Source of the DNA: a virus
Virus record (IMG/VR): IMGVR_UViG_3300044972_002389
Location: 264,604 to 328,603 of that record
DNA length: 64,000 nt
Strand: one strand, 5' to 3'
A model generated the notes under the pieces. It worked only from the letters and a program-made list of their open reading frames with translations. It was not told where the DNA came from and did not search any database. Below, in pieces: positions 4,205 to 53,880 of this stretch. The translations under genes and the position numbers were made by a program. Position 1 is the stretch's first letter. Each line of letters starts with the position of its first letter.

Positions 4205-5023
4205 ATGAAAAGTTTCAAAACATATTTGGAAGAAGCTCAAAAACAATACGACTTCCGCATCAAAATGGTGGTTCCGCCCACAGATGAGCATATGGATGAC
4301 ATGGAGCGGCTGTTAAGTAGATACAACCTCATCAGCATTGGCACTCCAGTGAAGATCTCTCCCAAGCAAGATGCTATGGAGTTCCGGGACATTGAAAATG
4401 CTGATGTTTGGTATATTGATGCTGTAATTGGCATCCCTTTCAGCGCATACATTCTTCAACAAGAACTTCGTGCTGCATTGAATATTCCTGAAAAGTTTTT
4501 GGTTGTGCGTAATGACAACGAGCCTATTGAAGTTGAAAGTCAAAAGATGCAAATCCTAAGCCTATTGGACAAAATGGCTGATGAAAAAGGTTTAACACAA
4601 AAAGCCAGCTTGTTGAGCACAGATAATGAATATCTAGATGCTGAACAGCCAGTTGTCAAAGACGCATTTGGGGACAAATACAACAAAAAATTTCTCAGTT
4701 ATCTGGCAGACGTTGCAGCTTCTCGGAAACCCCAAGAGTTTGAAACCCTCAGCAGTCACATTTCAGTTAAGGAATTGAAAGCTGCTCGGCAAGAACCCAC
4801 TCAAGACTTGGCAGATTTTAACGACAAGCATGATACACCAAAGCCTGTAACAAAATCCAAAAAATCCAACAAAATGCCAGTTGACAGCAAATTTTTGACT
4901 AGCAGTGGAAATTTTGATGACGACAGCAAGACCTACTTCACAGCACGCAAAAATCGCAGTGGGAAAACAGTAACCATGAGCATGCAAGCTGACGAAATCA
5001 GGCATCCTAGAAAAGGCAAGTAA
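4205..5023 (+). CDS. Putative capsid-targeted internal virion protein
   Basis: The start is ATG 4205. The protein begins MKSFKTYLEEA, which closely mimics the T4 capsid-targeting propeptide MKTYQEFIAEA of internal proteins, with a possible L-E-E/A cleavage site for a gp21-type prohead protease. The remaining part of the 272-residue protein is a compact N-terminal domain (to about residue 110) followed by a charged Lys/Ser-rich tail. I do not recognise the mature domain. Location among packaging genes supports a virion role; injection with DNA is speculative. Confidence 0.6.
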   Translation: MKSFKTYLEEAQKQYDFRIKMVVPPTDEHMDDMERLLSRYNLISIGTPVKISPKQDAMEFRDIENADVWYIDAVIGIPFSAYILQQELRAALNIPEKFLVVRNDNEPIEVESQKMQILSLLDKMADEKGLTQKASLLSTDNEYLDAEQPVVKDAFGDKYNKKFLSYLADVAASRKPQEFETLSSHISVKELKAARQEPTQDLADFNDKHDTPKPVTKSKKSNKMPVDSKFLTSSGNFDDDSKTYFTARKNRSGKTVTMSMQADEIRHPRKGK

Positions 5024-5025
5024 TT

Positions 5026-5766
5026 ATGGAATCAAATCGATATAATTTAACTATTTCAACCAAAGACATTCCCAGCAAGAGTGCTAGTGTTAGCACTGAC
5101 GATGCAGGTGATGTGATGAGGTTGATGCAGCTGGCTGGGCAAGGTAGTGACAAAAGATATAATGCATCAATAACATCTGCCAGTCAAAATCCCAATGATG
5201 CTGCTTCCATGACCGTAAACACTTGTGAGCCTGACGATGTTATGCGCTTGTTGCAGTTGGCTGGGGTTCCTCATATGACACAATCTAAAGCTTGTGGCTG
5301 TGATGGCCCTTGCGACTGTGATGTAGGAAAAGCTTGCGGCTGCCAAGGACCTTGCGATTGTGGAGACAGCGGCGTAGATGCCACGTCTCCAGAGGTAGTT
5401 GTTATGGAACAACAGGCTGAGTATGATTATGGCCACAAAGACCCTACTGAAGAAACTAAAGAATTTGACATAAAAGACTATAACTTCAAGGGACGTGGCG
5501 ATCTGCCTGAACGTTTGACAAATGCGCGATTTGGCAGCAATGCTTTGAAATCAGAAATGCGTGAAAGTATTCATGCCCGTTTAGTAGCAGCCTACAACGA
5601 CTTCATAAATGAAAGTGAACAGCGTGTAAATGCAGATGGTCGGGCCAGCCCTCTAACAGCTACAAAACGTGATGAGTTTTTGAAAGATCCCTACACTGAA
5701 GAACCTGACACTGACGGCAGTGAAAGCCCTTTGACTGATATCAAACGGCAACACATAAATCGATAA
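5026..5766 (+). CDS. Hypothetical protein with Cys-rich CGCxGPCDC repeats
   Basis: 246 residues. Two copies of a DVMRLxQLAG helix motif occur near residues 30 and 75. A Cys cluster near residues 85-112 contains two repeats of ACGCxGPCDC, eight or more cysteines in about 27 residues. The spacing suggests a small metal-binding knuckle. The C-terminal half is charged and has duplicated SPLT segments. I do not recognise a family. Short repeated modules in a virion cluster suggest an assembly or internal protein. Cys-rich proteins are rare among its neighbours. Confidence 0.6.
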   Translation: MESNRYNLTISTKDIPSKSASVSTDDAGDVMRLMQLAGQGSDKRYNASITSASQNPNDAASMTVNTCEPDDVMRLLQLAGVPHMTQSKACGCDGPCDCDVGKACGCQGPCDCGDSGVDATSPEVVVMEQQAEYDYGHKDPTEETKEFDIKDYNFKGRGDLPERLTNARFGSNALKSEMRESIHARLVAAYNDFINESEQRVNADGRASPLTATKRDEFLKDPYTEEPDTDGSESPLTDIKRQHINR

Positions 5767-5771
5767 TTTGC

Positions 5772-6017
5772 ATGCTGATACGTCGCACGACAATAGTAAC
5801 ACTGGACATTTTTTATTATCGACCTGATTATCAACACCTGATTCAGGAATTTGTGTGGACGTTGGATGACTACGTTCCAGAATTGCAGCGAACACAAGCG
5901 TTCTTGCAATTCTGGAAACAAAATATTGATGCAGTGATAAAAGAAATATTATTGGGTGTCAGCGGAGAAACACCTCGTAAACTGGAAGCAGTTGACCATT
6001 TGTTCCGCTTGTATTAG
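5772..6017 (+). CDS. Usg-like protein
   Basis: 81 residues. The core reads IFYYRPDYQHLIQEFVW, then VPELQRTQAFLQFW. This matches the pattern of the alphaproteobacterial Usg family, whose members carry a YxxPDHpxLLQxFVWQ segment followed by a FLxFW segment. Usg proteins are small and of unknown function, often near trp genes in Rhizobiales and Caulobacter. A phage copy directly before the terminase gene (3 bases apart) is unexpected and points to an alphaproteobacterial host. Assignment is from memory of the family pattern. Confidence 0.6.
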   Translation: MLIRRTTIVTLDIFYYRPDYQHLIQEFVWTLDDYVPELQRTQAFLQFWKQNIDAVIKEILLGVSGETPRKLEAVDHLFRLY

Positions 6018-6019
6018 AG

Positions 6020-7615
6020 ATGCTACAAAATAACACTGATCCAGTCCTAATAAAAAAGCCGCACCAACAGTTGCGACTGACTGCACACCAAGAGGCTGAG
6101 TTCCTCAAGTGTGCTATCAATCCCTTGTATTTTATAGACAACTACATATACATTCGACATAGCACCAAAGGCAGAGTGCCCTTCAAACTGTTTGACTATC
6201 AAAAAGACTTGGTTTTGACCTACTGGCAAAACCGCCAAGTTATAGCTATGTGCTCAAGACAGTTGGGGAAGACAGAAACAGCAGCCAGCTTCATGTTATG
6301 GTTCGCAACGTTCCAAAAAGATGTGAATATTTTGATCGCTGCCAATAATTTTCGCGCAGCTACCGAGATTATGGATCGCATCAAATTCAGTTATGAAGAA
6401 CTTCCTGACTGGTTAAAAGCTGGTGTTGTGACCTACAACGTGCAAAAGATTGTTTTTGACAACGGCAGCAAGATTGAAAGTGCTACTACCACTCCTTCAA
6501 CAGGACGTGGTAAATCCATCAGCTTGTTATATTTGGACGAGATGGCATTCGTTAAGCCTCGAATTGCTGAAGAGTTTTGGAGTGCCATCAGCCCAACTCT
6601 AGCCACTGGAGGAAAATGCATTATCACTAGCACTCCCAACAGTGATGAGGACCCATTTGCACAAATTTGGTATAGCAGTAATCGTACAATTGACGAATTT
6701 GGGAACGAACTGCCTGATGGACTGGGAGCAAATGGATTCAAAGCATTTGTTGCCAAATGGAATCAACATCCTGATCGAGACGAAGACTGGGCCAAAAAAG
6801 AGCGTGCCAAAATTGGTTATGAAAAGTTTGAGCGTGAATATGAACTGCGGTTCCTAACAGCAGACAGCACCTTGATTGACAGTCAGTGTCTAGCAGGACT
6901 GGTTTCAACTGAACCCTTGTTCAAAACCAACCATATACGATGGTGGGAAAAGCCTCAAGCCAACAACATTTATCTCATTAGCCTTGATCCATCAGCTGGC
7001 GTGGGCTTGGACTCAGCAGCTATACAAGTATGGCGATTGCCAGAAATGGCTCAGGTTGCTGAATGGATGCATAACCGCAGTGATGTTGCTACACAATTGA
7101 AAATGATTGTACAAATTACCAGCTTCATCGAACGAGAAATGCGAGCACAACCCCAGCAAATAAGCGAACCAGAAATATTCTGGACATTTGAAAACAACAG
7201 TTATGGGCAGGCTGTTATTGAACTTTTAAATGAAGCAGGATGGGACGTAGTACCAGCGCAATTGATGAGTGAACCCAATCAAAGTGGATCAAAGTTCAGG
7301 AAAGGATTGAATACAAATGGGCGCACAAAGAATCAAGCTGTAACCAAACTCAAAAGTTTGATAGAAGGCAATCGCCTCCAAATCAAGAGCAAGCCTTTGA
7401 TCTCAGAACTGAAAAACTATGTTACCAAAGGCGGAAGCTTTGCAGCCAAAAGTGGAGAACACGATGACTTGGTCAGTGCACTATTGATGATAGTAAGAAT
7501 GAGTCAGCTTATAGCAAGATGGGACGACAGCACAGCATCACAAATCAGGAATAATGATTTAGTGGAGGTTGATGATTTGATGGAGCCTTTGCCAATAGCT
7601 GTTAGCATCTGGTAA
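6020..7615 (+). CDS. Terminase large subunit (gp17-like)
   Basis: 531 residues, somewhat shorter than T4 gp17 (610). The ATPase domain has Walker A CSRQLGKTETA at residues 78-88 and Walker B LLYLDEMAF. The C-terminal RNase H-fold nuclease has LISLDPSAGVGLDSAAIQVW, WTFENNSYGQAVIEL and GEHDDLVSALLM, supplying the acidic metal ligands. It packages DNA into proheads and cuts concatemers. The gene follows the Usg-like gene by two bases. I saw no frameshift or missing catalytic residue. Confidence 0.95.
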   Translation: MLQNNTDPVLIKKPHQQLRLTAHQEAEFLKCAINPLYFIDNYIYIRHSTKGRVPFKLFDYQKDLVLTYWQNRQVIAMCSRQLGKTETAASFMLWFATFQKDVNILIAANNFRAATEIMDRIKFSYEELPDWLKAGVVTYNVQKIVFDNGSKIESATTTPSTGRGKSISLLYLDEMAFVKPRIAEEFWSAISPTLATGGKCIITSTPNSDEDPFAQIWYSSNRTIDEFGNELPDGLGANGFKAFVAKWNQHPDRDEDWAKKERAKIGYEKFEREYELRFLTADSTLIDSQCLAGLVSTEPLFKTNHIRWWEKPQANNIYLISLDPSAGVGLDSAAIQVWRLPEMAQVAEWMHNRSDVATQLKMIVQITSFIEREMRAQPQQISEPEIFWTFENNSYGQAVIELLNEAGWDVVPAQLMSEPNQSGSKFRKGLNTNGRTKNQAVTKLKSLIEGNRLQIKSKPLISELKNYVTKGGSFAAKSGEHDDLVSALLMIVRMSQLIARWDDSTASQIRNNDLVEVDDLMEPLPIAVSIW

Positions 7616-20006: not shown

Positions 20007-20040
20007 AAAAAATGGGGAGGATTGCTCCTCCCCATTTTTT
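20007..20040. terminator. Bidirectional terminator between convergent genes
   Basis: A-run, GGGGAGGA, TTGC loop, TCCTCCCC, T-run. It can serve both 19280-20005 (+) and 20039-20671 (-). Confidence 0.85.
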
Positions 20041-20671
20041 AAAAGAATGGGTCAGTTATTACTAGATTGCCGTCTCGGGTCATAAAATTTGCATTGTGTA
20101 AATCCCAGGATGTTAATCCATAGTGAGTGGCATACGAAATCAAATTTTGGGATACTTGTTTCCAACTGGGATCTGGGGGACCAATCGTTTGCCAAATGTC
20201 CCAAAGATCTCCCATTATGTCAGATATTGACTCTATATCAATTCCCTCTGCATAGATAAAATCTGCAACTGCATCAAAAACATGGTCCACTAGGGCACGA
20301 ACATTATATTTTTTGGCCAAGAGGTGCAAATATAGCAGCTCAGGCATATAATTTTGTGTTAATCTATTCAAACTAACAGGTAATAGTTTTTCCATTCGCA
20401 CATACACATAAGGTGTCCCAGGAATAGGGCGTATATATCTACTGAATTTGGGAACATGAGTATTGTGTTGGTTGTGCCTACAAAACTCAACAAAGTGCTC
20501 ATACCGGCTGCCTTTGACCCAGATGCGCAGTACATAAGACTCTTTGGGGTGTTCAGCAACAAACGCTTCTTTGCCTGTGCCCAATAATTGCCATCCATTT
20601 TTGCGCAATATTTCGCTAAGGCTTTTGGTTTTTAAGTCTTTTGTAATCTCTAGCTCGTGTAAGTTATGCAT
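20039..20671 (-). CDS. Protein-kinase-like protein, paralogue 1
   Basis: 210 residues. A glycine-loop-like segment (LLGTGKEAFVAEHPKESYVLRI) is present in parts, with Arg where kinases usually have the VAIK Lys. The catalytic loop is SWDLHNANFM and the Mg-binding motif is ITDPF in place of DFG. Asp, Asn and Asp of the core are retained. The paralogue at 20664-21314 shares RPIPGT and YVRME motifs. A phage protein kinase or small-molecule kinase is inferred; pseudokinase is possible. Confidence 0.6.
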   Translation of the reverse strand: MHNLHELEITKDLKTKSLSEILRKNGWQLLGTGKEAFVAEHPKESYVLRIWVKGSRYEHFVEFCRHNQHNTHVPKFSRYIRPIPGTPYVYVRMEKLLPVSLNRLTQNYMPELLYLHLLAKKYNVRALVDHVFDAVADFIYAEGIDIESISDIMGDLWDIWQTIGPPDPSWKQVSQNLISYATHYGLTSWDLHNANFMTRDGNLVITDPFF

Positions 20672-21314
20672 GGTGACTAGGTAACTTCAGGGGGTCAGAG
20701 ATTACAAGAATATTGCCTCGTAGCATGAAGTTGCCATAATGCATATCCAGCTCACTAGGCCACTTTTTACTTTTTTGGTGTAAGGTCAACAATAAGTCTA
20801 TTGCCTGTTTCCAAGAGCTGTCTGGTTTTCCAATTTTTTCCCATAGTTCGTTTTGAATTTGTTTGTCAAAAATACTGCCTCTTGAAAGTTCTCGGAGGTA
20901 AACCCCTACTGTTAGGGCAAAGTCTAATTCAAACTGATATCCCAGCAGTGTTGTTTGAATATACAAATATGCTAATTCTGGTAGATAATCTTTCATCAAT
21001 TGATTTTGCGTAATGGATTTTAATATTTCCATTCTCACATAATTCATTTCAGTTCCTGGAATAGGTCTTACGTAGCGGCTGAATTTGGGAAAATGTGGAT
21101 TTTCTTGATGTGACTTAACTAAATTGACCCAATCCACATAGGGCGTGTCCTTACTGAAAATTCTAAGCACATAGGGTTTTTCAGGATGACCTACCACTAC
21201 AGCCTCATTACCCCACCCAACAAGCGCCCAGCCATGTTTGTTCACAACTTCTTGCCAGTGAACAGGTCCGCGCTTTTTCAATTGTTTGGTTATTTCCAAT
21301 TCACTAAGTTGCAT
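20664..21314 (-). CDS. Protein-kinase-like protein, paralogue 2
   Basis: 216 residues. It has the same layout as the downstream paralogue: VGWGNEAVVVGHPEKPYVLRI, FSRYVRPIPGT, YVRMEIL, then ELDMHYGNFM and VISDPLKL. Catalytic Asp and Asn and the DP Asp remain. The two genes overlap by eight bases and are clearly a duplication. A late-promoter-like core lies 5 bases before its ATG. Confidence 0.6.
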   Translation of the reverse strand: MQLSELEITKQLKKRGPVHWQEVVNKHGWALVGWGNEAVVVGHPEKPYVLRIFSKDTPYVDWVNLVKSHQENPHFPKFSRYVRPIPGTEMNYVRMEILKSITQNQLMKDYLPELAYLYIQTTLLGYQFELDFALTVGVYLRELSRGSIFDKQIQNELWEKIGKPDSSWKQAIDLLLTLHQKSKKWPSELDMHYGNFMLRGNILVISDPLKLPSHHA

Positions 21315-21391: not shown

Positions 21392-21640
21392 ATGAGCAAA
21401 GTTGCAAAGATAATTATTCAAGACGAGGTAAACATTCAAATCACAGGGATCGACCTACCTGTCAAGAGAGCATTGGTTAATTCTGTCAAATACTTCTTGC
21501 CATCAGCTCGGTATAGTCCCGCTTTCAAAATGGGACGATGGGTGTTGCATTCTTACAACACCCTAATTACCAGTAATCCCTTAAATTATCCTTATTGTGA
21601 TATTGCATCACATCCTAATTTCAAATGTACTTTGAACTGA
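21392..21640 (+). pseudogene. Duplicated 5' fragment of uvsW
   Basis: The first 50 codons (21392-21541) encode a protein matching the first 50 residues of intact UvsW at 22440, with 39 identical by my count (for example KIIIxDEVNI, DLPVKRA, ARYSPAFxMGRW). Homology stops exactly after MGRW. The remaining 32 codons are unrelated and run into the 3' end of the minus-strand GIY-YIG gene. Many synonymous sites differ, so it is not a recent copy of the downstream gene. It is best read as the old uvsW 5' end left after an endonuclease cassette entered. Whether the peptide is made is unknown. Confidence 0.85.
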
Positions 21641-22439: not shown

Positions 22440-23897
22440 ATGACAAAGATAGCTAAAATTATCATAGAAGATGAAGTGAATATATCTATCAAAAATATAG
22501 ATTTGCCCGTAAAACGTGCAATGGTTAAGTCTGTTGAATATTTCTTACCACAAGCCCGATATTCCCCAGCTTTTCGTATGGGTAGATGGAACGGGTGCAT
22601 GTCTTATATGACACTCGGAGGCAAAACCTATCTCAACATTCTGGATCGACTATTACCTGTTTTACAAGAACATGGTTATGAGTTTGAGATTGACGATCAA
22701 CGTGCATTTCACAACATCAGCTTTCCATCAATTGATGAGAATTTTCTAAGTCCTTTGACTTGGCCTGCAGGGCATCGATTTGCTGGTCAACCAATTCAAT
22801 TGCGAGACTATCAAGTAGACGCCATCAATCTCTGTCTCCAAAACCCACAAGGGGTCAATGTACTACCCACTTCAGCTGGCAAAACTATTGTAACAGCCAC
22901 ACTTTCAAAAATTGTTGAAGAGCGTGGACGAACTATCGTTATTGTTCCTAACAAGAATCTTGTGCAACAGACAGAAGAAGATTATCGAAATATTGGTCTT
23001 GATGTAGGGGTATTGTTTGGTGATCGAAAAGAGTACACCTGCAAACACACTATCTGCACATGGCAGAGCTTGAATGTTCTAGACAAAAAGAACAAAGACT
23101 CTCTTGATGGAGATCAGTTAGAGACATTTTTGAAAGATTTGGTGTGTGTGATTTGTGATGAGTGCCATGGAGTAAAAGATTTAAATGTGTTACATCAATT
23201 ACTCACAAGCGTGTTCAAAAACATTCCCATTCGTTGGGGACTGACTGGCACCGTTCCTGAGGAAGAATACAAACAAGTGGGTTTGTTTACTGCTATTGGG
23301 CCGCAAATTGGAAGCCTTACTGCCAAAGAACTGCAAGACAAAGGAGTGCTGGCACAGTGTGATGTAACATGCTTACAAACACAAGAAACATTCCAATATG
23401 GAAACTACCAGGAAGAGTTGAAGTTTTTGGTCACAAATGATCAGAGGCTGCAATGGATGGCACAAACTATCGAGACAATAGCTGAGTCAGGAAACACACT
23501 TGTTCTTGTTGACCGTATTGAAACTGGACAAAAACTCTATAATCAACTAAGTGGAGCAGTATTCATCTCAGGAGAAATGAGTGCCAAAGATCGTAGAGAG
23601 CATTACAAAGAGATCAATTTCAGCGATAATAAAATAATGGTAGCCACATATGGCACCACGTCAACAGGTATTTCAATCAACAGAATCTTCAATCTAGTAT
23701 TGGTTGAAGCAGGCAAAAGTTTTGTAAGAACTATTCAAAGCATTGGGCGTGGATTACGAATGGCAGATGACAAGAGCAGTGTTCAAATTTATGACATCAG
23801 CAGCAAGATGAAGTTCAGTAACAGCCATCTTAACAAACGCAAACAGTTTTACAAAACAAGTGAATACCCTTTTGAGGTGAAAAAAATCCGTTACTAG
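22440..23897 (+). CDS. uvsW: UvsW-like SF2 DNA/RNA helicase
   Basis: 485 residues, similar in length to T4 UvsW. Q-like segment LRDYQVDAI, motif I LPTSAGKTIV, motif II VICDECHG (DECH), motif III-like GLTGTVP, and C-terminal motifs TYGTTSTGISI and QSIGRGLRM are present. UvsW unwinds R-loops and branched DNA and helps switch from origin to recombination-dependent replication. The first 50 residues are duplicated in the fragment at 21392. Confidence 0.92.
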   Translation: MTKIAKIIIEDEVNISIKNIDLPVKRAMVKSVEYFLPQARYSPAFRMGRWNGCMSYMTLGGKTYLNILDRLLPVLQEHGYEFEIDDQRAFHNISFPSIDENFLSPLTWPAGHRFAGQPIQLRDYQVDAINLCLQNPQGVNVLPTSAGKTIVTATLSKIVEERGRTIVIVPNKNLVQQTEEDYRNIGLDVGVLFGDRKEYTCKHTICTWQSLNVLDKKNKDSLDGDQLETFLKDLVCVICDECHGVKDLNVLHQLLTSVFKNIPIRWGLTGTVPEEEYKQVGLFTAIGPQIGSLTAKELQDKGVLAQCDVTCLQTQETFQYGNYQEELKFLVTNDQRLQWMAQTIETIAESGNTLVLVDRIETGQKLYNQLSGAVFISGEMSAKDRREHYKEINFSDNKIMVATYGTTSTGISINRIFNLVLVEAGKSFVRTIQSIGRGLRMADDKSSVQIYDISSKMKFSNSHLNKRKQFYKTSEYPFEVKKIRY

Positions 23898-52039: not shown

Positions 52040-52876
52040 ATGGCCGGTGAGCAAGACGGGTATGTGGACTTCAATGACAGAACAACCCCTAATGAAATAG
52101 CGAGTGTGCAAATTCGAACCGAACCTCCCCCACGGACTGAGCCTGCATTTGAAAGTTTTGTAAGGCGTATTGAAAGCTATGCAAGGGAGCCAGCAGTGGT
52201 AGCTATGAATGATGCTATCCAAGCTGCACAAGCCGCCGCAGCAAACAATCCGGATGCACAGCAGGCATTACAACAGAGCTTGGGTCCCGTACAAAATGTT
52301 GGCCTAATAGGCGGGTTCGGGGCTCTGTTGGCAAGTCATAGAGACAGAATTGTGGATGACGGTACTCGAATATTTCGGGCAATAAATGACTTTTTTCAAC
52401 CAGGTAGAGCACAAGATCCCAGTAGGTGTGCTACTGTTGGTGATTACATAGGAACCATACAAGGCCGATACAACGACACATTGGGATCTATTACTAGTGC
52501 TATAGGCCAATTTGTAGGAGCTCTTGTAAGTATCCCTGCACGCATAATTGGGGCTATAACCTCTGCCATTTCTGGCTTGATTGGGGCAATTGTGGGTGGC
52601 ATTTCTGCTGTTGTACAAGCTGCTGCTGGAGTTGTAAGTAGTGCTGTGGGAGTACTCACTGGCGCCATAAGTGGGGTCAGTAGCTTGCTAGGCACCATTG
52701 GCGCTGGTATAAGCCAAGTTACAGGAGCAGTAGCTCGCGAAACACAAAATATCACAACAGCATTAACATCTGGATTTGCATCTGGATTCAGTCGCAGTGT
52801 TTCAGGAGTGAATCCCTGTGTAGCCGCAGCACAACAGGGTTCACCTGTGGCACAATTTGGCACACCACCAACCTAA
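52040..52876 (+). CDS. Hydrophobic Gly/Ala-rich virion-type protein
   Basis: 278 residues. The first 130 are ordinary (AFESFVRRIESYAREP, NNPDAQQALQQSLG). Residues about 150-245 are a long Gly/Ala/Ile/Val-rich stretch (PARIIGAITSAISGLIG, VVQAAAGVVSSAVGVL) able to enter membranes. The C-terminus is flexible. Late promoter. A role in genome entry through the membrane is a guess. Confidence 0.5.
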   Translation: MAGEQDGYVDFNDRTTPNEIASVQIRTEPPPRTEPAFESFVRRIESYAREPAVVAMNDAIQAAQAAAANNPDAQQALQQSLGPVQNVGLIGGFGALLASHRDRIVDDGTRIFRAINDFFQPGRAQDPSRCATVGDYIGTIQGRYNDTLGSITSAIGQFVGALVSIPARIIGAITSAISGLIGAIVGGISAVVQAAAGVVSSAVGVLTGAISGVSSLLGTIGAGISQVTGAVARETQNITTALTSGFASGFSRSVSGVNPCVAAAQQGSPVAQFGTPPT

Positions 52877-52879
52877 TGG

Positions 52880-52907
52880 TTGACAACTGAAGAATCCCCG
52901 ATATACT
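52880..52907 (+). promoter_or_regulatory. Strong sigma70 promoter for tmRNA
   Basis: Perfect TTGACA (52880-52885), 16-base spacer, TATACT (52902-52907). Predicted start near 52914, just before the acceptor piece. Confidence 0.85.
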
Positions 52908-52913
52908 AGGAAG

Positions 52914-53158
52914 TGATGCTGTTGATAGCAGCCAAATAAGTTGTGCAAGACCTGGGGGCAGCACCCAGCATCTCCAGAATTTGGGGATGAAGCAGGATTC
53001 GATTGCAAACAGTAAGGGTTGAAGGAGGCATTCGGTGAGATATGGCCGCCCAGAGATGGGAACAGTTCTAAACGTAAAAATGCTAACGACAACAACGTTG
53101 CATTTGAGTCTACCGGTCTAATAGCCGCATAGTCTCAGCGGGAGGGCAACCCTCCTTG
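52914..53158 (+). ncRNA. ssrA: Circularly permuted (two-piece) tmRNA
   Basis: The region has no protein gene. Acceptor piece (to 52976): P2 3' strand with TGCAA (52944-52948), T-arm CTGGG/CCCAG with a 7-base loop (52952-52968), then CATCTCC plus discriminator A. After a six-base spacer, the coding piece starts with GGGGATG (52983), which pairs with CATCTCC (one G-U). GGATTCGA (52995-53002) is the hallmark tmRNA 5' motif, and TTGCAAAC pairs with GTT(G)TGCAA. The tag frame runs 53082-53132: ANDNNVAFESTGLIAA then TAG. A hairpin GGAGGG/CCCTCC closes the piece. CCA is not encoded. The T-loop lacks TTCRA. Piece ends are approximate. Confidence 0.87.
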
Positions 53159-53193
53159 GAACAGAAGCGGTTGCACTTTTAAAAGGAATTACA

Positions 53194-53880
53194 ATGAACA
53201 CACTTGCTGCCGACTCCAGTTATGACGCCGGACTTCGAACGTTCATGCTGGGCATCTACAATCGAATGACAGCCGCCTTGGTTGTAACAGGAGCTACAGC
53301 TTGGCTGGTATCTAAATTTTTTGCCACTCTCATGACAGGATGGACAGGCATTGGCCTTATGCTCTTGCCCTTGGCATTTGTGTTGGTATTGAGTTTTGGT
53401 ATTGAACGACTCAGATACAGCACAGCCAATCTCCTGTTTTGGCTATTTTCTGCCAGCATGGGCTTGAGCATGAGCACAATTTTCCTCACGTTCACTGGCA
53501 CTAGTATTGCCACTGTGTTTTTCATTACCAGTGCCACTTTTGGTGCTGCCAGTGTGTATGGTTATGCTACCTCACGTGACTTAACAAGCATGGGTTCTTT
53601 CTTGATGGTGGGCCTAATTGGCGTATTGATAGCCAGTGTTGTGAACATTTGGCTAGCCAGTTCAATCTTGACCTTTGTTGTGAGCATTATTGGTGTTATT
53701 GTGTTTGTGGGGCTCACGGCTTACGACACACAAAACTTGAAGAATGATTACTACAGCAATGGTGAAGTGTTTGGATTGGACAGTCCAGCCAAAAGCAGTT
53801 TGTATGGGGCACTAAGTCTCTACTTGAACTTCATCAACATCTTTCAGCTGCTCCTCAACTTGATTGGTGATCGAGAATAA
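53194..53880 (+). CDS. Bax inhibitor-1 family membrane protein (YccA-like)
   Basis: 228 residues with about seven hydrophobic segments. The start YDAGLRTFMLGIYNRMTAAL and the core ATFGAASVYGYATSRDL, SFLMVGLIGVLIASVVNIW, VIVFVGLTAYDTQNLK and LSLYLNFINIFQLLL are typical of alphaproteobacterial BI-1 proteins. E. coli YccA, a relative, is a substrate and modulator of the FtsH protease. Ribosome site AAAAGGAA. It lies about 35 bases after the tmRNA, possibly on the same transcript, and ends with a strong terminator. Confidence 0.9.
   Translation: MNTLAADSSYDAGLRTFMLGIYNRMTAALVVTGATAWLVSKFFATLMTGWTGIGLMLLPLAFVLVLSFGIERLRYSTANLLFWLFSASMGLSMSTIFLTFTGTSIATVFFITSATFGAASVYGYATSRDLTSMGSFLMVGLIGVLIASVVNIWLASSILTFVVSIIGVIVFVGLTAYDTQNLKNDYYSNGEVFGLDSPAKSSLYGALSLYLNFINIFQLLLNLIGDRE

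Follow-up and report, generated by a model that had tools for sequence, protein, structure and literature searches.

A circularly permuted, two-piece-type tmRNA gene of a T4-type jumbo phage with a likely role in ribosome rescue

Introduction

Can a large phage carry its own circularly permuted tmRNA gene, and if so, what would the phage gain from it? The question is raised by a locus in the final 64 kb of a 328,603-bp IMG/VR virus record, the stretch that we analysed and that we refer to as the window. A reading made from the letters of the window, before any database search (the sequence-only reading), had proposed that positions 52914-53158 hold a phage-encoded, circularly permuted tmRNA of the alphaproteobacterial type, that a match to the alpha_tmRNA covariance model would support it, and that the lack of a conserved tag frame in related phages would speak against it.

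Results

Covariance models identify a permuted tmRNA gene in the window

A scan of the window with Rfam returned two matches above cut-off, both at the tmRNA locus: the model tmRNA_permuted (RF04321; curated gathering cut-off 47 bits) aligned to 52915-53132 with 72.9 bits (E = 4e-12), and alpha_tmRNA (RF01849; cut-off 50 bits) aligned to 52876-53177 with 64.6 bits (E = 2e-15). These matches, together with the covariation described below, bear out the proposal of a phage-encoded tmRNA and identify 52915-53177 of the window (plus strand) as a circularly permuted, two-piece-type tmRNA gene; the alpha_tmRNA score is also the support that the sequence-only reading had looked for. Both scores are below those of most relatives. 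When folded as a single strand, the window tmRNA was more stable than 200 of 200 shuffled sequences (z-score -3.1). ARAGORN called no tmRNA over the window, and it was also silent on the tmRNAs of the related viral contigs L003, L004, L005, L007 and L136 and of Sinorhizobium phage Phosso, all of which were found by the covariance models.

All of the parts that had been named beforehand were found, on the plus strand and in permuted order. The acceptor (3') piece comes first (52915..52976; supported by the RF04321 and RF01849 alignments and by covariation) and consists of a P2 strand (GATGC), the T-arm CTGGG-GGCAGCA-CCCAG (52952-52968), the acceptor 3' strand CATCTCC (52969-52975) and the discriminator A73 (52976), after which CCA is not encoded. 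There follows a 6-nt internal spacer, GAATTT (52977-52982), which was read directly and whose excision from between the two pieces would be expected. The coding (5') piece (52983..53177, where the RF01849 match ends) carries the acceptor 5' strand GGGGATG, the D-loop analogue GGATTCGA (52995-53002), P2 strands, the tag and the 3' pseudoknot region. GGGGATG (G1 = 52983) pairs with CATCTCC to give a 7-bp acceptor stem that includes G3.U70, the alanine identity element in the charging of tRNA-Ala and tmRNA. The 3' pseudoknot (53146..53174) was also read directly: GCAACC (53146-53151) likely pairs, as judged by eye, with GGTTGC (53169-53174) around the motif AACAGAA (53160-53166). The locus proposed from the letters thus stands and its end does not, as the gene continues about 19 nt past 53158 to take in AACAGAA and the last pseudoknot strand.

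A spacer of 6 nt is the shortest among the phage loci that we collected, and the same length was seen in L003 and L004 (CCAAAC in both) and in L005 (GAGATC). With such a spacer and no CCA, a 7-nt loop would cap the acceptor stem, a structure that may be difficult for RNase P and 3' processing to act on. Separately, we observed that a short ORF bearing a Shine-Dalgarno-like site lies within the tmRNA spacer of three other IMG/VR records (L231, L234 and L238; 357, 289 and 236 kb); the ORFs in this set are MFNDWHWIYLWGIAVVANYLFWIVKSLF..., MDHEAVLLGAFVLIGLVLVFF and MEQWTDSFPPLNLW..., and two of the three read into the tmRNA coding piece.

The tag frame is kept in related phages

The tag reading frame (53082..53132, plus strand; GCT..TAG) comprises the codons GCT AAC GAC AAC AAC GTT GCA TTT GAG TCT ACC GGT CTA ATA GCC GCA TAG and translates as ANDNNVAFESTGLIAA. 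The tags of related phages differ from it in sequence and length; they stay in frame, and thus the lack of conservation that would have spoken against the gene was not what we found. The in-frame tags are ANDNNVALALAA in L004, ANDNVAFENVAQAA in L005, VNDNIAFEEVRLAA in L007, AANDNAAFENELLAA in L006 and ANDNVSTKVALAA in Phosso, with ANDNGNLALAA also among the differing tags of the relatives, and an Ala-Ala end is present in every relative listed. Usual tmRNA tags end in LAA or VAA. Canonical LAA ends occur in L004, L006, L007 and Phosso, and the window tag ends in LIAA, a variant of LAA, which makes degradation of the tagged product by host proteases less certain.

Paired changes maintain the structure across phages

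Relatives were viral contigs fetched via homology to the Bax1-I family protein encoded next to the tmRNA. One of them, L002, matches the window exactly across the tmRNA and the flank upstream of it, and encodes a Bax1-I protein that is 100% identical. In L003, L004, L005 and L007 the Bax1-I gene is immediately preceded by a permuted tmRNA; in L006 and L010 the tmRNA lies within about 1.7 kb upstream of it. RF04321 scored above cut-off in 15 of the 35 whole records searched; when four records chosen by tmRNA pattern are left out, the count is 12 of 31 Bax1-I-bearing records, some of which are near-copies of one another. A nucleotide search with the window tmRNA against annotated phages returned chance-level pieces only, and the pelagiphage-like tmRNA of L086, used as a query against the phage collection, gave no match.

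Covariation was counted in an alignment of 12 phage sequences from which the spacer had been removed, with the structure taken from the window. Cells paired in 87.2% of cases and two-sided changes were present in 27 of 30 pairs; deriving the structure from one of the aligned sequences favours the first of these figures, and the two-sided changes not to such a degree. The covariation score was 0.675, compared to 0.229 ± 0.026 for shuffled alignments (0 of 500 reached the observed value) and 0.17 or less when the structure was slid. The T-stem paired in 100% of cells and the P2 segments in 72-84%, with two-sided changes in every T-stem pair and in most P2 pairs. Acceptor 5' strands were GGGGATG, GGGCCGG, GTGGGTA, GGGGCTG, GGGCCCG and GGGGGTG, each with a matching partner; G3.U70 was invariant in 12 of 12 sequences, while the other acceptor pairs changed together. 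Pseudoknot pairs were left out of the counting, MAFFT having set two families one base out of register; by eye, the pseudoknot strands changed together and AACAGAA was invariant in L005, Phosso, L207 and L136. The T-stem of L003 and L004 (GACCGGGAGGGCAGTGCTTCCGCATCTCC) apparently has 6 pairs rather than 5, unlike that of the window.

The locus is also a mosaic. Apart from some dips, identity between the window and L003 is 97-100% over most of 47.5-57.5 kb, compared to only about 70-75% over 52960-53000, and L003 and L004 are nearly identical over the tRNA-like half and far less alike elsewhere. This pattern of identity to L003 indicates that the tRNA-like half was exchanged and the tag half kept, possibly through homing-type exchange. 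In L007 we observed a truncated second tmRNA (4830-5630), made up of an acceptor piece, a long spacer and the start of a coding piece, which runs into a GIY-YIG endonuclease-like ORF (identified by eye) ahead of the complete tmRNA at 5642-5847; this may reflect homing into tmRNA genes.

A predicted promoter precedes the gene and a Bax1-I gene follows it

Upstream of the tmRNA, TTGACA (52880-52885) and TATACT (52902-52907), set 16 nt apart, form a predicted sigma-70-type promoter (52880..52907, plus strand). The sequence-only reading had called this promoter perfect; both boxes are present, and they match the consensus at 11 of 12 positions. The consensus match alone is weak, because 2.2 kb contained 4 promoter-like sites when 3.5 were expected by shuffling. 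L003, L004 and L005 have similar boxes at the corresponding position, with differing sequence between the boxes, and this sharing is the better evidence for a promoter.

Downstream lies a gene for a Bax1-I (TMBIM) family membrane protein (53194..53880, plus strand; Pfam PF01027, E = 9e-53), which starts 17 nt past the end of the RF01849 model match; a scan for terminator-like sites between the two genes found none. The Bax1-I gene is probably in the same transcript as the tmRNA and, given the 17-nt gap and the absence of a terminator-like site from that scan, the tmRNA may be the leader of the Bax1-I transcript. Relatives of the Bax1-I protein were seen at 75 loci in viral contigs.

The phage is of T4 type and would depend on host partners

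The record encodes a T4-type TerL, a gp32-like SSB, UvsX, a gp41-like helicase and virion proteins, and the tmRNA is surrounded by genes for NrdA, NrdB, glutaredoxin and type II topoisomerase subunits. The terminase of the record comes closest to that of Sinorhizobium phage Phosso (49.7%; 469 kb), with the Pseudomonas PA5oct group and Agrobacterium phage Atu_ph07 also among the nearest. The earlier description of a T4-like phage is supported by TerL, the gp32-like SSB, UvsX and the gp41-like helicase, as a T4-type phage with a large genome. Elsewhere in the window we noticed, by eye, two paralogue-like pairs of ORFs: neighbours at 20039-21314 on the minus strand (MHNLHELEITKDL/MQLSELEITKQL), and a pair at 21392-21640 and 22440-23897 on the plus strand (MSKVAKIIIQDEVNIQI/MTKIAKIIIEDEVNISI) that flanks a minus-strand GIY-YIG-like ORF.

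SmpB was not found in the record, which may be incomplete, nor in 10 related records, and a ClpP-family protease and SspB were likewise not found in this possibly incomplete record; the host would therefore have to supply these partners. Similarly, no tRNA gene was detected in the record as it stands, so the tmRNA here is not part of a tRNA array; 9 of the 10 relatives searched have tRNA genes, 3 to 59 each. Among bacterial genomes, the same 5' motif occurred in 17 contigs, with flanks that lacked permuted-tmRNA anatomy, and the search thus pointed to no donor host.

Outside the window, the phage encodes the head of a class II tRNA-nucleotidyltransferase (PF01743, E = 2e-25; L254, G000:C1:245968-246345, minus strand). 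The protein is 284 aa long, has the motifs GGAVRD, DID and RDLTINS, aligns over residues 65-279 with the head and neck part of human TRNT1, and ends where the body and tail domains of a CCA-adding enzyme would begin; a full-length CCA-adding enzyme was not recognised by NCBIfam (best score 86 bits, equivalog cut-off 290). Because the tmRNA has no encoded CCA, this nucleotidyltransferase-like protein could complete its 3' end. An enzyme specific to the tmRNA is countered by two phages: Atu_ph07 has a related tRNA nucleotidyltransferase gene but lacks a permuted tmRNA, and in Phosso the two occur together, with CCA encoded. In view of these gene contents the link between enzyme and tmRNA is only a lead. 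We offer as a tentative and rather doubtful proposal that the phage has a minimised, partly self-supplied rescue RNA. Such an RNA, with a 6-nt spacer and without CCA or a tRNA gene alongside it, would have its 3' end finished by the compact phage protein, and its tRNA-like half would be swapped as a cassette among related phages while the tag half stays.

Discussion

Proposed function and alternatives

We consider it likely that the locus is a real alphaproteobacterial-type permuted tmRNA (ssrA) of a T4-type jumbo phage, which acts in ribosome rescue together with host partners. The gene is very probably functional. From the observed gene, structure, tag frame and conservation we infer transcription, processing, charging, activity and benefit as follows. 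Its own sigma-70 promoter would probably give a precursor made up of acceptor piece, 6-nt spacer and coding piece, perhaps reading on into the Bax1-I gene; excision of the spacer would fall to RNase P and 3' trimming, A73 would be extended by CCA, and G3.U70 would mark the RNA for alanyl-tRNA synthetase. The two-piece RNA would then go with host SmpB and EF-Tu to ribosomes stalled on broken mRNA, the tag would be added and the ribosome released, and host proteases would degrade the tagged fragment. The most likely benefit would be extra rescue capacity while mRNAs are cleaved during infection, and a role in keeping ribosomes free, as had been suggested from the letters, is plausible.

The same RNA could act as a decoy or modulator that occupies SmpB or stalled ribosomes, or that adds a tag able to escape host proteases, thereby blunting or redirecting trans-translation in the host. 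In keeping with this, the record and the 10 relatives yielded no SmpB, which would leave the RNA competing for that of the host; the LIAA tag end is atypical; and inhibition of endogenous E. coli tmRNA has been reported for the tag-less tmRNA of phage DS6A (PMC11915505). However, the tag frame is intact and kept in frame, with canonical LAA in four of the phages (L004, L006, L007 and Phosso), and G3.U70, on which alanine charging and thereby tagging depend, is invariant, and we regard a decoy as unlikely. Still less credible to us is a passenger, that is, a host gene that was captured not long ago or is decaying, and that does nothing for the phage. Such a gene would fit the patchy occurrence (12 of 31 Bax1-I-bearing phage records), the mosaic tRNA-like half (about 70-75% identity to L003 against 97-100% nearby) and the truncated second copy in L007, but paired helix changes and in-frame tags across divergent phages point to selection rather than decay, and the tmRNA stands alone in a record in which no tRNA gene was detected, so it has not hitch-hiked with a tRNA array. 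Finally, a chance resemblance, or a Bax1-I mRNA leader region that merely looks like tmRNA, would agree with the silence of ARAGORN and with scores under those of most relatives, but we reject it as next to impossible, given two independent covariance models above their curated cut-offs (E 1e-12 to 1e-15), the covariation, the conserved tag, and relatives that ARAGORN also misses and the models detect.

Comparison with known systems

With the genes described by RF04321 and RF01849, the window gene shares the order of parts, the tRNA-like domain, G3.U70, the D-loop motif, the tag and the AACAGAA end with its likely pseudoknot; it differs in its 6-nt spacer, the absence of an encoded CCA and the T-loop GGCAGCA. 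Its GGATTCGA has an extra base compared to the GGATCGA of most near relatives.

The sequence-only reading had taken a permuted copy in a T4-like phage to be little or not described, which is not supported. A two-piece tmRNA was reported in the OM43 phage Melnitz (PMC9004378, 2022), in a study that found 133 tmRNA structures among 402 phages, including 53 two-piece ones (ARAGORN predictions), 50 of which came from marine or aquatic phages; in addition, PMC11242549 lists one tmRNA, which may or may not be permuted, for the Sinorhizobium jumbo phage AP-J-162, like ours a large phage with a tmRNA. Melnitz and related marine myophages share with the window a permuted tmRNA of alphaproteobacterial kinship, located within a phage operon with a protein gene right after it. 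Melnitz differs in being a relative of Pelagibacter myophages with its gene linked to a glutamine riboswitch, whereas the window belongs to a jumbo phage with its tmRNA beside a Bax1-I-family gene, and the Rfam scan found no riboswitch in the window. Huge phages with tmRNA and SmpB have been reported (PMC7162821, 2020); they resemble our phage as large phages bearing parts of trans-translation, and differ by the SmpB that we did not find in the window record and 10 relatives.

The merged model used here was described along with 79 unique bacteriophage tmRNA sequences (PMC11915505). Two further kinds of RNA came to our attention in viral contigs. L187, L191 and L198 have a one-piece tmRNA (RF00023, 85.6 bits in L187) with the possible tag ANRRLALAA. 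A pattern search in L197 revealed, at about 7000-7130 (plus strand), a non-permuted, tag-less tmRNA-like RNA of ~130 nt (GGGGATG...GGATCGAT and CATCTCCA), which is possibly akin to the tag-less form of DS6A; the only Rfam match at that locus was a tRNA (7381-7499).

A further comparison is with Phosso (PV764938.1; L251), a large phage that has the nearest terminase and a permuted tmRNA at 349596-350198 (minus strand; 113 bits). It differs from the window in a 413-nt spacer, an encoded CCA and dozens of tRNAs. Its GenBank record has no RNA gene annotated at the tmRNA, and one hypothetical protein reaches the queried flank. ARAGORN-only surveys thus undercount permuted phage tmRNAs, as the window and six relatives were missed by ARAGORN and detected by covariance models. 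The kind of gene is already known; as far as our searches show, what is new is the jumbo-phage lineage, the 6-nt spacer without CCA and the Phosso gene, and the range of two-piece phage tmRNAs is widened from pelagiphage-like myophages to a jumbo-phage lineage related to Phosso. Since Phosso is cultured and its host, Sinorhizobium meliloti, is tractable, the benefit to a phage of having its own ribosome-rescue RNA is directly testable.
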